NCBI GenBank assembly: GCA_026706345.1
Contig: JAPOYX010000066.1
Location: forward strand, 1-45,088
DNA from: Gemmatimonadota bacterium
Lineage (GTDB): Bacteria; JAAXHH01
Reading direction: 5' to 3'
Length of the DNA stretch: 45,088 nt
Position 1 is the first letter of the stretch; each line of letters begins with the position of its first letter. The notes beneath the pieces were generated by a model. The model was given only the letters and a program-made list of their open reading frames with translations, was not told the origin of the DNA and did not search any database. The translations under genes and the position numbers were made by a program. Shown here piece by piece: positions 10,543-14,192 of the stretch.

Positions 10543-11319
10543 TTATTCTTCCTCGGCGCCGATCTGCCCCAGGTCCAGGTCCAGTTCGTCGCGCCGCTGG
10601 TTCTTGGTGATCCTTCCGTCCTGTACCCACAGGATGCGGTCTGAAACGTCCAGCATCTTCAGATCGTGGGTCGCGGAAATGATCGTCACCTGTTTTTCCT
10701 GGTTCAGCTCCCGCAACAGTTCGATGATCTCCCGTCCGGTCTTCCGGTCCAGGTTGCCCGTGGGTTCGTCCGCGAGGACGATGGCCGGGTCGTTGGCCAG
10801 CGCGCGGGCCACGGCGACGCGCTGCTGCTGCCCGCCGGACAGTTCCAGCGGCTTGTGCTGGACCCGCTCGCCGAGGCCCACCAGCGTCAGCAGGTCGACG
10901 CCCTTGTCGATGGCTTCGTCCGTCGCCAGGCCGGCGAAAATCATGGGCAGGGTGACGTTTTCCAGGGCGGTCATGACCGGAATCAGGTTGAAGGTCTGAA
11001 AGATGTAACCGATCTTGCGGCACCGCAGCCAGGCCAGTTCATAGGCGTCCAGCTGGGCGACGTCGACCTCGTCGATGTAGACCTTGCCCTCCGTGGGCTT
11101 GTCCAGCGCGCCGATCATGTTGAACAGGGTGGACTTGCCCGAGCCCGACGGGCCCATGATGGAGATGTACTCGCCGCGCTGGACCTCCATGTCGATGCCC
11201 TTGAGCGCCTCCAGGGAGAGCTTGCCCATCTGGTACACTCTCTTGACCCCGCGCGTGCGGACGATATTCTGCGTTTCGGTATCCGGCGCGTCCATTACCG
11301 CGGTCTGTTCTTCTGTCAT
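10543..11319 (-). CDS. ABC transporter ATP-binding protein, LolD/MacB type
   Basis: This is a 258-residue ATPase with Walker A GPSGSGKS at 56-63, Q-loop Gln108, signature LSGGQQQR starting at 160, Walker B VLADEP at 181-186 and the switch His218. The sequence style (ADEPTGNLD, ATHDLKML) is that of the LolD/MacB/FtsE group, which work with FtsX-type permeases to export or extract substrates at the membrane. It lies 68 bases after such a permease gene and is the last gene of the cassette with the 314-residue protein and the PqqD-like protein. The substrate is unknown. Confidence 0.92.
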   Translation of the reverse strand: MTEEQTAVMDAPDTETQNIVRTRGVKRVYQMGKLSLEALKGIDMEVQRGEYISIMGPSGSGKSTLFNMIGALDKPTEGKVYIDEVDVAQLDAYELAWLRCRKIGYIFQTFNLIPVMTALENVTLPMIFAGLATDEAIDKGVDLLTLVGLGERVQHKPLELSGGQQQRVAVARALANDPAIVLADEPTGNLDRKTGREIIELLRELNQEKQVTIISATHDLKMLDVSDRILWVQDGRITKNQRRDELDLDLGQIGAEEE

Positions 11320-11387
11320 TTTCCGCCCCTTTCAGATATCTGTTCGAATCCGCTCGTTCCGGCAAGCGTTCCGGGTGCAGTCCGATG

Positions 11388-12050
11388 TCAAACTTCCGTG
11401 CGCATGGCGTCGGCCGGAGGCATCTGGGATGCCCGGTACGCGGGGTACAACGCCCCGATGATGGCGAGACCCAGTCCGGCCCCCAGCGAATACAGGCCGC
11501 TTCGCACCACGTCCAGCAGAGGAAAAAGCATCAGGGGGTCCCATCCATAGGAGGTCATCATGGAAACCAGCATGAACAGGCAGCCAAGTATGACCCCGCC
11601 CACCGAACCGACCAGTCCCTGGAAGGTAGACTCCAGCACGAACAGCTGTATGATGAACTTGTCCAGCGCCCCCAGGCATTTCATGGTCCCGATTTCCCGG
11701 TACCTTTCGGTCACCGACATCAGCATGGCGTTGGTGATTCCGACCACGCACACCAGCAGGGAGAGGGAAACGAGCCATACCTGCTGCGTCGCCGAATCGC
11801 CGTCCGCGCCTTTCTGTTCCAGCAGCGCCCGGACCTGGGGGGAACCGCCTTCAACGAGCGCTTCGTTGATGGCCGCGCCGGTCAGGATGGACATGAGGAA
11901 GGCGATGCCGAAGAAGATCCCGCCGATCGTGATCAGCGACCGCCAGAACCTGATTCGCAGGCTGCGGAAACTGATCTCGATCGCCTTGGACAAGGGCAAT
12001 GAGATCTGCTTTTCCGTCGTGCCGGCCGTCGCGACTGATTCCGTCGTCAT
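11388..12050 (-). CDS. FtsX-like ABC permease lacking a periplasmic domain
   Basis: The 220-residue protein has four membrane segments, at about 40-60, 90-112, 137-160 and 180-200. The conserved FtsX/MacB cytoplasmic loop RYREIGTMKCLGA follows the second segment, and the chain ends with the AYRASQMPPADAMRTE pattern of that family. Typical MacB and LolC/E permeases have about 200 residues of periplasmic domain between segments 1 and 2; here there are only about 30. Its ATG overlaps the stop of the PqqD-like gene (ATGA), so the two are translationally coupled, and the ATPase follows. A homodimer with the ATPase would complete an exporter (inference). Confidence 0.85.
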   Translation of the reverse strand: MTTESVATAGTTEKQISLPLSKAIEISFRSLRIRFWRSLITIGGIFFGIAFLMSILTGAAINEALVEGGSPQVRALLEQKGADGDSATQQVWLVSLSLLVCVVGITNAMLMSVTERYREIGTMKCLGALDKFIIQLFVLESTFQGLVGSVGGVILGCLFMLVSMMTSYGWDPLMLFPLLDVVRSGLYSLGAGLGLAIIGALYPAYRASQMPPADAMRTEV

Positions 12051-12442
12051 GCGTTCTTTTCTCCTTTTCTGTTTGCCACGGCCAGTCCAATCAGTCCCTT
12101 TTCCGTGAGTTGCTTCAAATACGTCAACGTGGAGACTTCCGCTTCCTTGCGTTCCAGCTTGTATTCGTTCCGGATCGTCGATATCACGTGGTCCACCGTG
12201 TTCCGCCCGTCACATAGCCCCCAGAGGAACGAGCCGATCCGGTCCAGCACCACCGTCCGCCGGCTTGGCACGTAGAACACCCTGGACAGGGTATTGATCC
12301 ACCAGGTCTTTCTCCTCGGGATGCCCAGCACGATTTCCCCGTCGGAGTTTTCTTCGCAGGTCAGTCTTTCATTGCGTACCGGCTTTGCGCGCAACAACTC
12401 CCTTCGAGGCAACGGGGGCGGTTTCTTTCGAAAGAACGACAT
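12047..12442 (-). CDS. PqqD-like (RRE-type) small protein
   Basis: This 131-residue protein carries a PqqD fold signature in its second half: a LDRIGSFLWGLCDGRNTVD stretch (about 65-83), then an acidic helix and EKGLIGL near the end. In characterised systems PqqD domains bind leader peptides of ribosomally made peptides and hand them to a maturase. The N-terminal 60 residues are basic and proline-rich, with a short strand-forming region before the domain. It is coupled by ATGA to the FtsX-like permease and lies 59 bases after the unknown 314-residue gene. No radical SAM enzyme or precursor peptide gene is visible nearby, so peptide modification is only a possibility. Confidence 0.75.
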   Translation of the reverse strand: MSFFRKKPPPLPRRELLRAKPVRNERLTCEENSDGEIVLGIPRRKTWWINTLSRVFYVPSRRTVVLDRIGSFLWGLCDGRNTVDHVISTIRNEYKLERKEAEVSTLTYLKQLTEKGLIGLAVANRKGEKNA

Positions 12443-12501
12443 GATTTACGACCCGTGGAAAAGATGCCGGCCATGGACGAGCGTGTATGCTTCCCGCAAG
12501 A

Positions 12502-13446
12502 TCAGTGGCAAATCACAGTACCGGCTATCCCGTCCAGGAAGTCTGGCCGGTGCGTCTCGCCCATGTGTCGCAGCACGTAGAGCCTATTGCCATCGATACA
12601 ATGCCAGCCGCAACAACTCAATGGTTTTTTGCGCGGACGCCGCCACGGCAGCCACGCCATCCGGCTGTGAACCGTCTCGGGATCCACGCCCTCGCCGGTC
12701 CCGCGGACGCCCGGATGACCGTAAGCGGAAGCGGAGCCATCGACCCAGTTGTCCATCTCGTTTCCGTAGGTATCCTGGAACCACTCCGGGAACGTCCGGT
12801 TCTCGAGGTGCATTTCGGCAAGGCTCATCCTTACCAGTTCCAATCTGGCGCCACCGTACTCAAATGTCAACTCGATCCGTCCCGTCAGAAAGGCATGCTT
12901 CACGAGGGCGCATTCGGACGGCAGTTCGAATTTCAGCCCGTACACGGCCCAGACGGCGGTGTCGCCCCGTGCGTGGTCGTCCAAGGTGTTCAGAAGCCTC
13001 GAGGCCTGGGCCATGATGGATTCGCCCCCGCGTCCGAGGACCTGGGCAAAGACCGTACGTCCGCAGGTTTCGCACATCCACAGGCAGCCATAGGCCTGCA
13101 GGGGGTCGCGCCCTTCCGTCCGCCAGTGGAACCCCTCCACTGTTCTGTCCGCCAGCACGGACTCGTCCTTGATGAGCCCCAGGTCCCGCCGGACTTTCAC
13201 CGGCGGCGCCTTCTTTTCGCCCTTTCCGGAAAGATTCTTGAGATATCTCGCAACCACCTGGTCGACGGGTTCCCGGCCCCGGGTACGCTCCCACCTCAGT
13301 TCGAAACGGGGCATTTCCGTATCGTCGAGCCGCAGGTAGCCCGATGTATAATCTCCCGTTACCGCGCCGATACTCCAGTCTTCCGGCCGCTCGAACGACA
13401 GGTGATGCCAGCCGGTGACCGCCCATTTCGAAGCGCCGCGATTCAT
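12502..13446 (-). CDS. Conserved-looking protein of unknown function, Trp- and Cys-rich (314 residues)
   Basis: I do not recognise the family. The 314-residue protein starts with a WHHLSFERPEDWSIG segment and a GYLRLDD turn followed by PRFELRWE. It has a Cys cluster at 121, 125 and 128, and a second cluster CCGWHC at 278-283; it ends Cys-His. There is no signal peptide or membrane helix. The ATG at 13446 overlaps the pgsA stop by ATGA and has GGGAAAG upstream. The same frame runs further upstream, but that part is only the shadow of pgsA. The next genes are a PqqD-like protein and an ABC permease and ATPase, so it may act in the same unnamed process. A metal site is plausible from the cysteines. 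Confidence 0.75.
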   Translation of the reverse strand: MNRGASKWAVTGWHHLSFERPEDWSIGAVTGDYTSGYLRLDDTEMPRFELRWERTRGREPVDQVVARYLKNLSGKGEKKAPPVKVRRDLGLIKDESVLADRTVEGFHWRTEGRDPLQAYGCLWMCETCGRTVFAQVLGRGGESIMAQASRLLNTLDDHARGDTAVWAVYGLKFELPSECALVKHAFLTGRIELTFEYGGARLELVRMSLAEMHLENRTFPEWFQDTYGNEMDNWVDGSASAYGHPGVRGTGEGVDPETVHSRMAWLPWRRPRKKPLSCCGWHCIDGNRLYVLRHMGETHRPDFLDGIAGTVICH

Positions 13447-14192
13447 GTAAGCGTACTTTCCCGTCGCATTTCCCTGCGATCCATCGTGCCGGAAGCCCCG
13501 GGGACTCCCGCGGTCTCCGGACTGCCCGACCGGGTCCGGACCAGCCGCGCGAACCCCAGGACGTAATGAATGCCCGATCCGACGACGCAGCAGAGCGCCG
13601 CCCAGAGCGCCCACGCCCCATAAGGCTGCAGGTCCGCGGCGTAAAGGAAAAGCGTGCCACCCATGACCAGGGTGGTCAGTTTCCCGATCCGGTCGGCCGG
13701 CAGGACCAGGTTGCCGGGCCTGAGATAAAGATACGCGCCCGCCCCCAGTATGGCCAGGTCGCGGGCGATGACCAGTGCGGCCGCCCACAGGGGGAAGTCC
13801 CGAAACAGCACCAGGAAGACCGCCAGGCTGCCGACCAGGATCTTGTCGGCCAGCGGGTCGAGGACGAGCCCCCATTTGCTTTCCCAGCGGAAACGGCGCG
13901 CCAGGTAGCCGTCGGCCGCGTCCGTCAGAAAAGCCCAGCCGATGAGCGCGTAGAGGCCCAGCTGCGCATCCTGGGCGAAACCCCAGTATATGAACGGCAC
14001 GGCGGCTATCCGCGAGAGGGACAGCAGGTTGGGCGGAGACCAGAACCCTCCCGTTCTTCCGGCCCGCCTGGTCCGCCTCGCCGGCCTGGTCCGCCCTGCC
14101 TGCCCGATTTGCCCGATCTGCCTGGCCTGCCCGATCTGCCTGGCCTGCCCGATCTGCCTGGCCTGCGCGTCCTGCCCGGAATCCGGACTCAT
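13443..14192 (-). CDS. pgsA: CDP-alcohol phosphatidyltransferase, probably phosphatidylglycerophosphate synthase
   Basis: This is an integral membrane enzyme that joins CDP-diacylglycerol to an alcohol, most likely glycerol-3-phosphate. The full CDP-alcohol motif is present: DAADGYLAR, eight residues, then GLVLDPLAD (all four Asp). PNLLSLSRIAAVPF is the usual beginning of PgsA, but here it is preceded by about 52 extra residues of low complexity. These include repeats of ARQIGQ and an Arg/Thr/Gly-rich part. An AAGGA ribosome site seven bases before the ATG at 14192 suggests the extension is translated. The C-terminus after the last helix is also long. It follows recN by 19 bases and overlaps the next gene. 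Confidence 0.88.
   Translation of the reverse strand: MSPDSGQDAQARQIGQARQIGQARQIGQIGQAGRTRPARRTRRAGRTGGFWSPPNLLSLSRIAAVPFIYWGFAQDAQLGLYALIGWAFLTDAADGYLARRFRWESKWGLVLDPLADKILVGSLAVFLVLFRDFPLWAAALVIARDLAILGAGAYLYLRPGNLVLPADRIGKLTTLVMGGTLFLYAADLQPYGAWALWAALCCVVGSGIHYVLGFARLVRTRSGSPETAGVPGASGTMDRREMRRESTLT
14102..14177. repeat. 18-bp tandem repeat inside the 5' end of pgsA
   Basis: The unit GCCTGCCCGATCTGCCTG occurs exactly at 14125-14142 and 14143-14160, with degenerate copies before (from about 14107) and after (14161-14177). Each unit is made of two related nine-base halves. On the minus strand it encodes the hexapeptide ARQIGQ. CTGGTCCGCC motifs just upstream (14068-14095) belong to the same family of repeats. 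Confidence 0.85.

Follow-up and report, generated by a model that had tools for sequence, protein, structure and literature searches.

Four adjacent genes in a genome of the phylum Latescibacterota encode a 314-residue protein (hereafter the 314 protein), a PqqD-domain protein, a minimal FtsX-type permease (the mini-permease) and a LolD/MacB-type ABC ATPase. They lie in a window of 45,088 nt, the whole stretch of DNA analyzed (assembly GCA_026706345.1, contig JAPOYX010000066.1), and our comparisons support the view that the four genes belong together. It is also very probable that this cassette forms one system with two further proteins, a giant permease and a polytopic OPT-like membrane protein. 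Reasoning by analogy, we consider it possible, with somewhat less than even confidence, that the cassette represents the cytosolic, energizing half of a six-component envelope system and that the giant and the OPT-like protein make up the other half. The cargo would most likely be peptides or similar small molecules taken up by the cell, direction, substrate and contacts being what we infer.

The minus strand carries all four. The gene for the 314 protein comes first (12502..13446) and is followed by those for the 131-residue PqqD-domain protein (12047..12442), which is of the RRE type (recognition element for ribosomally synthesized and post-translationally modified peptides, RiPPs) and has a conserved N-terminal extension, the 220-residue mini-permease (11388..12050), and the 258-residue ATPase (10543..11319), in which the LolD model covers residues 19-238. 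Spacing is tight, with 59 bases between the 314 and PqqD genes, a 4-base ATGA overlap between the PqqD and permease genes, and 68 bases between the permease and ATPase genes. The first-pass annotation of this DNA had described four close same-strand genes with just these gaps and this overlap, and was correct on each point.

Conservation was first considered among 16 genomes of the window's phylum. The seven named relatives are metagenome-assembled genomes, four deposited as Candidatus Latescibacterota and three as Gemmatimonadetes; assemblies of this kind probably originate from sponges. The 314 protein (50-100% identity), the cassette PqqD protein and the mini-permease (77-100% identity) were each found in 15/16 genomes, the sole genome without them being G015. 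The PqqD gene adjoins the 314 gene in 15/15, and the order of the cassette genes is the same in 15/15, the locus of G012 being split over two contigs. Measured in 14 Latescibacterota loci, gaps within the cassette do not exceed 178 bases. That gene order has been kept in 15 genomes over such a range of 314-protein identity excludes chance.

For the wider comparison, profiles of five families (314, PqqD, mini-permease, giant and OPT-like) were searched against one "relatives" sample of 384 genomes from 322 genera, with thresholds of E <= 1e-100 for the giant profile and E <= 1e-15 for the OPT-like profile. The giant was found in 29 of the 384 genomes and the OPT-like protein in exactly the same 29. 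All of these except G015 also have the mini-permease (28 genomes, each scoring at least 175.8 bits), the next genome scoring 93.8 bits with a 415-residue frame, and 25 of the 29 have PqqD at 93.5 bits or more, the next genome scoring 63.2; both score gaps were chosen after the search, from its results. The 314 protein occurs in 23 genomes, 15 of the phylum and eight others, all within PqqD's 25. Genome-level Fisher values ignore kinship, and co-occurrence was weighed by counts of lineages, a lineage being a family and the window's phylum being counted once: 12 for the giant, 12 for the OPT-like protein, 12 for the mini-permease, ten for PqqD and nine for the 314 protein. Some of the positive genomes contributed to profiles A2 and A4-A8 and are therefore bound to match; three genomes that contributed to none (G139, G276 and G361) were recovered by the giant, OPT-like and mini-permease searches.

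The genes are also physically linked. Outside the phylum the giant adjoins the OPT-like gene on the same strand in 13/13 genomes, and the resulting cluster includes PqqD in 8/10 genomes and the 314 gene in 7/8, the latter lying no more than 5 kb from giant and OPT-like gene in those seven and apart from them at L071 (G296). A cassette-type ATPase, scoring at least 315 bits to the window's ATPase, sits beside the mini-permease in 28/28 genomes. Whether the 314 and PqqD genes keep company was a point on which the first-pass annotation had made its reading depend, and they are adjacent in 21 of the 23 genomes that have both. Outside the phylum PqqD adjoins the 314 gene and is then followed by a cassette-type ATPase in 6/8 genomes, with the mini-permease between in three of those six; at L067, 413 bases lie between PqqD and permease.

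A number of observations weigh against so unified a system. The giant's cluster takes in mini-permease and ATPase in only 6/13 genomes outside the phylum and never within it; at the Latescibacterota loci opened, giants and OPT-like genes are away from the cassette. A strong match to PqqD is missing from 4/29 genomes and one to the 314 protein from 6/29, so both are dispensable: giant, OPT-like protein and mini-permease occur without a strong PqqD match in G139, G276 and G361, the PqqD gene being absent from an otherwise complete locus in G361, while G232 and G090 are without the 314 protein. In G296 and G306, PqqD, permease and ATPase are away from the 314 gene. In G331, G054 and G199 the mini-permease and PqqD are each accompanied by a cassette-type ATPase of their own, so that in these three genomes the giant may belong to a different complex from the mini-permease. 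G015, which is 83% complete, has giants and OPT-like genes and no cassette gene. Extra PqqD-domain genes occur in the phylum, for totals of three in G010, seven in G014 and two in G015. The OPT resemblance is itself weak, in that two of eight OPT-like proteins match Pfam OPT (PF03169), with a best E of 2.7e-5 and the only score shown at 19.7 against a cut-off of 25.8, the other six having no match at E 0.1; profile comparison gave canonical OPT a probability of 4% and DUF6785 34%. Because PqqD and the 314 protein are missing or displaced in some genomes, we divide the set into a core of giant, OPT-like protein, mini-permease and ATPase, and two frequent partners, PqqD and the 314 protein.

Judged from sequence, the ABC pair consists of parts of the Type VII (mechanotransmission) ABC superfamily, combining an FtsX-family permease (76.1 bits vs the Pfam cut-off of 25.5) with a LolD/MacB-type ATPase (ABC_tran, 117 bits vs 25). 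The permease had been reported to lack the periplasmic domain of MacB and LolE, and this holds: by simple hydropathy, the first hydrophobic segment is separated from the second by about 30-35 residues, and Pfam gave no match to the extracytoplasmic domain MacB_PCD. Since the two proteins are recognizable as Type VII parts, it could be argued that they are an ordinary Lol/MacB relative standing beside two unrelated genes by chance. Unless the genome sample is heavily biased, we regard this as very improbable, given the nested co-occurrence over the 384 genomes and the fact that both proteins fall below the cut-off of every NCBIfam model listed (for the ATPase, the best 25 of 204). The top ATPase models among these 25 were LolD, MacB, DarD and DevA; the ATPase scored 235 bits vs 307.75 for LolD and 200.8 vs 264.85 for FtsE, and the mini-permease 45.8 vs 362.45 for lolCE, over its C-terminal part only. 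A separate LolC/E-like permease is encoded elsewhere in the genome; it too stays below the cut-off, at 304.9 bits over positions 3-411 of 411. A MacAB-type fusion was not found, ATPase and permease being separate genes. A standard Lol, MacAB or FtsEX system was rejected on the missed curated cut-offs and the presence of that other LolC/E-like permease; a standard Lol assignment was the challenge that the first-pass annotation had raised to its own proposal. Beyond the LolD model the ATPase ends in a C-terminal tail that, judged by eye, is similar to those of cassette ATPases in other lineages.

Two further candidates were rejected. For a defence system, PADLOC matched neither the 314 nor the PqqD protein; it gave LolE-type matches for the permease and ATPase-domain matches for the ATPase (best mad3, 110.7 bits), and PHROGs had no entry matching either the 314 or the PqqD protein. 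For a mobile element, neither the mini-permease nor the one giant searched matched a plasmid.

The giant, in loci outside the phylum, is a frame of ~1,480-2,550 residues with an FtsX match. Six giants were scanned by Pfam, one of them from the window's phylum, and FtsX exceeded its cut-off in all six and M28 (PF04389) in five, L186 having no M28 match at E 0.001; MacB_PCD was listed in four and over cut-off in two, and PA was found in one. An N-terminal hydrophobic segment is present in 8/10 giants, the further parts being an M28-like region, a MacB-like region, FtsX and a conserved C-terminal domain. The M28-like region aligns with aminopeptidases and weakly with nicalin (E 0.0036). We checked what we take to be the M28 catalytic residues in 16 giants from loci opened early, a subset of the later profile finds: the first zinc-ligand His is kept in 2/16 and the Glu pair in 0/16, while Asp257, His302 and Asp340 (L069 numbering) are kept in 16/16. 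By these residues the giant is predicted to be a receptor-like pseudopeptidase. It resembles M28 aminopeptidases and nicalin in the M28-like region and, in one giant, the PA match, and differs from them in being without the catalytic residues and in its fusion to an FtsX-type permease. In one giant (L068 6847-11745) an F5/8 type C domain, of the sugar-binding type, is inserted in the extracytoplasmic part. G006 has giants of 1,522, 1,542 and 1,574 residues; one of these is adjoined by a DUF6785 gene and has an OPT-like gene in its vicinity. The idea that the giant's C-terminal domain is a relative of the halves of the 314 protein was rejected, as no similarity was found.

The OPT-like protein has ~660 residues, and its members are 39-53% identical to the first row of alignment A8. 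It shares length, polytopic character and weak similarity with OPT (PF03169) and with DUF6785/DUF6784, but it mostly lacks a Pfam OPT match and forms a family of its own, whose profile matched no solved structure. Each of the 16 phylum genomes has at least three OPT-like matches. Membrane proteins of the DUF6785/DUF6784 type were also seen beside giants (L076 13609-15600, L077 2895-4946 and L068 4571-6589); no description of DUF6785 was found in the literature searched.

The PqqD protein matches PF05402 with 46.9 bits vs a cut-off of 23.4, over positions 8-67 of 67, and has in addition ~55 N-terminal residues that are conserved in the cassette family. Its profile matches lasso-peptide and PQQ (pyrroloquinoline quinone) chaperones of known structure in PDB, whereas among NCBIfam models it falls below the cut-offs of those for lasso, ScmD, PQQ, GeoRSP and WgkC. 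The predicted structure, with a mean predicted local distance difference test score (pLDDT) of 44.9, was too poor to use. It is therefore related in sequence to the PqqD/RRE peptide-binding proteins and differs from them in the N-terminal extension, in its tie to an ABC machine and an OPT-like protein, and in the neighbourhood of its gene, where no modifying enzyme was seen.

Where a PqqD-like protein is encoded close to enzymes and transporters, the usual interpretation is a RiPP cluster that depends on an RRE (PMC7470986; PMC12710340 is a further RRE paper), and the combination of a PqqD domain with an ABC pair would suit a RiPP-like cassette for peptide maturation and export. We consider this quite improbable. 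The first-pass annotation had seen no radical S-adenosylmethionine (SAM) enzyme, and a CxxxCxxC scan of 28 loci (548 frames of at least 200 residues) agreed: it gave 14 matches, 11 of them the 314 gene itself and three unrelated or spurious frames, and no radical-SAM-like frame. No RiPP modifying enzyme was found near the cassette, the window being covered by Pfam, the 28 loci by CxxxCxxC and other enzyme classes by eye. The PqqD protein is below the cut-off of all equivalog models, gap lengths leave little space for a precursor inside the 14 Latescibacterota cassettes measured (a search confined to the cassettes themselves), and the cassette has a conserved position among housekeeping genes. 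A radical SAM/RiPP cluster was accordingly rejected by the motif and gap scan. The earlier interpretation thus stands as far as the genes belonging together and the ABC pair departing from standard Lol are concerned, while of a peptide-maturation cluster no sign was found. It missed the giant and the OPT-like protein, whose genes lie outside the window, elsewhere in this genome.

Weaker PqqD matches were also followed outside the cassette family, six of 15 such loci being opened. In four of the six the PqqD-domain gene lies directly beside a canonical OPT transporter (PF03169), all outside the phylum (G196, G359, G060 and G016; L121-L124). The other two, L119 (G230) and L120 (G089), are at or near peptidyl-prolyl isomerase and SurA-like genes, the isomerase name being backed by Pfam in G230 only.

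The 314 protein was called unfamiliar from the start, and no known family was found for it. It has no Pfam family (best DUF1450, 16.2 bits vs a cut-off of 30.1), and Pfam, PHROGs and PDB offered no relative that was convincing; a single-sequence structure search returned two matches with E values of 0.87 and 1, and the family profile matched no solved structure. Simple hydropathy gave no hydrophobic segment, and the predicted structure (mean pLDDT 46.6) was too poor to use. What can be recognized is a two-fold internal duplication: halves 1-160 and 161-314 align in profile comparison with a probability of 95.1% (E 3.2e-8, 141 columns), bringing the C125-x-x-C128 region onto W281-H-C283 and D157-H158 onto C313-H314. 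Among 23 family members W13, W24 and W166 are kept in all 23, C125 in 22, C283 in 20, C128 in 19 and C313 in 19, whereas C121 (12), C278 (12) and C279 (6) are poorly kept, so that the two Cys clusters noted earlier hold for the first four residues and not for the last three. Most 314 proteins of the window's genus have a CxxxCxxC stretch resembling the radical SAM motif. As a radical SAM site it was rejected, C121 being present in 12/23 members, and the motif is probably there by chance, its first Cys not being kept outside the genus.

How such a set might work is suggested by the analogy of Type VII ABC systems. These do their work on the outer side of the membrane together with partner proteins, and they typically carry no cargo across it (PMC12646458). 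On this analogy the mini-permease and the giant would pair through their FtsX domains on an ATPase homodimer, as LolC and LolE do on LolD, and ATP hydrolysis would move the giant's extracytoplasmic pseudopeptidase part. This part may bind the substrate, probably a peptide or peptide-like compound, and pass it to the OPT-like protein, which would carry it over the membrane, most likely inwards. PqqD, with its peptide-binding RRE fold, and the duplicated 314 protein might receive the substrate in the cytosol, or couple its presence to the ATPase. In Latescibacterota one cassette could serve several interchangeable giant/OPT-like pairs. We place this mechanism a little short of even probability. 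The fuller claim is doubtful and offered tentatively, namely that this is a new transport machine in which a Type VII ABC engine that does not itself pass cargo drives a separate OPT-like carrier through a giant pseudopeptidase receptor, with PqqD and 314 proteins on the cytosolic side and exchangeable receptor-carrier pairs.

Neighbours of the cluster include an amidohydrolase gene between giant and OPT-like gene (L074 7737-8960) and genes for SelA-like pyridoxal phosphate enzymes beside the OPT-like gene or the cassette ATPase (L190 3610-4788, L065 11050-12168); a partial frame of similar look at L079 had no Pfam match. The amidohydrolase and SelA-like neighbours fit uptake followed by breakdown. 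In favour of uptake we count the resemblance to OPT, the pairing of PqqD with OPT genes, and the catabolic enzymes among the neighbours. The opposite direction is unlikely, although it has points in its favour: the ABC pair and the giant could pull lipoproteins, lipids or peptides from the inner membrane in the manner of LolCDE or YbbAP, the OPT-like protein flipping or releasing them outwards. The best ATPase models (LolD, MacB, DarD and DevA), albeit below cut-off, would suit such extraction, as would the MacB_PCD listings in four of six giants, two of them over cut-off, and YbbAP-TesA joins a Type VII ABC system to a hydrolase (PMC12646458). Against extraction and export stand the other LolC/E-like permease in the genome, the catabolic enzymes among the neighbours, and the translated neighbours, none of which looked MacA- or TolC-like by eye, no dedicated search having been made.

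A GAF-GGDEF (diguanylate cyclase) gene, identified by Pfam, follows the cassette ATPase in G053 (L069 9412-10623), and frames similar by look only follow the ATPase in G232, G090 and G361 (L117, L118 and L187). These, together with the receptor-like character that its residues suggest for the giant and the F5/8 type C domain in the giant of one lineage, could speak for an FtsEX- or BceAB-like unit that signals the state of the envelope, the giant acting as sensor and PqqD and 314 proteins as cytosolic output. We find this rather unlikely, as a polytopic OPT-like partner in 29/29 genomes would be superfluous for a pure sensor and the ATPase gene is followed by secA in the window as in its congeners. 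Uptake by a six-component system remains the reading that we prefer.

Set against LolCDE, MacAB-TolC, FtsEX-EnvC and YbbAP-TesA, the system shares a LolD/MacB-type ATPase with FtsX-family permeases and, according to PMC12646458, operation with a partner protein, by which Type VII ABC systems are usually defined. It differs in its 220-residue permease without an extracytoplasmic domain, its giant with an M28-like pseudopeptidase region, its OPT-like membrane protein, and its PqqD and 314 proteins. No description of this partner set was found in the literature searched for PqqD/FtsX/LolD, M28/FtsX/OPT and MacB_PCD/M28 combinations. For PqqD with oligopeptide transporters only a plant-growth Burkholderia genome paper turned up (PMC11172717), and a word search of the main text of a sponge Latescibacterota paper (PMC12993501) gave no occurrence of PqqD, oligopeptide, FtsX, peptidase or LolD. 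What emerges is a Type VII ABC system with a partner set undescribed in that literature, spread over 12 lineages of the 384-genome sample. It suggests functions that can be put to the test, one beyond peptide maturation for a PqqD-type protein and one for a nameless membrane family. If the proposal is true, PqqD-type proteins would have a general role with oligopeptide carriers beyond natural-product pathways, for which the pairs of PqqD and canonical OPT genes may be compared.

The flanks of the cassette are themselves conserved. The 314 gene is joined by an ATGA overlap at 13443-13446 to the upstream gene for a CDP-alcohol phosphatidyltransferase (13443..14192, minus strand); its longest frame opens at 13875 (457 residues), yet family matches start at 13446. 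Further upstream are a RecN-type gene, NAD kinase, polyprenyl synthetase and the exonuclease VII large subunit, and secA lies on the other flank, running towards the cassette; the window neighbours scanned by Pfam are housekeeping genes. Phosphatidyltransferase and RecN-type genes are upstream of the cassette in 15/15 phylum genomes, a phosphatidyltransferase relative adjoining the 314 gene in all; NAD kinase was not found at the cassette locus of G014. On the other side secA is present in 14/15 genomes, 2.6 kb off in G014, and was not found within the stretch of G013 examined. Across ten congeneric species the ATPase is 99.6-100% identical vs 87-95% for SecA, a near-invariance within the window's genus that suggests a central cellular job.

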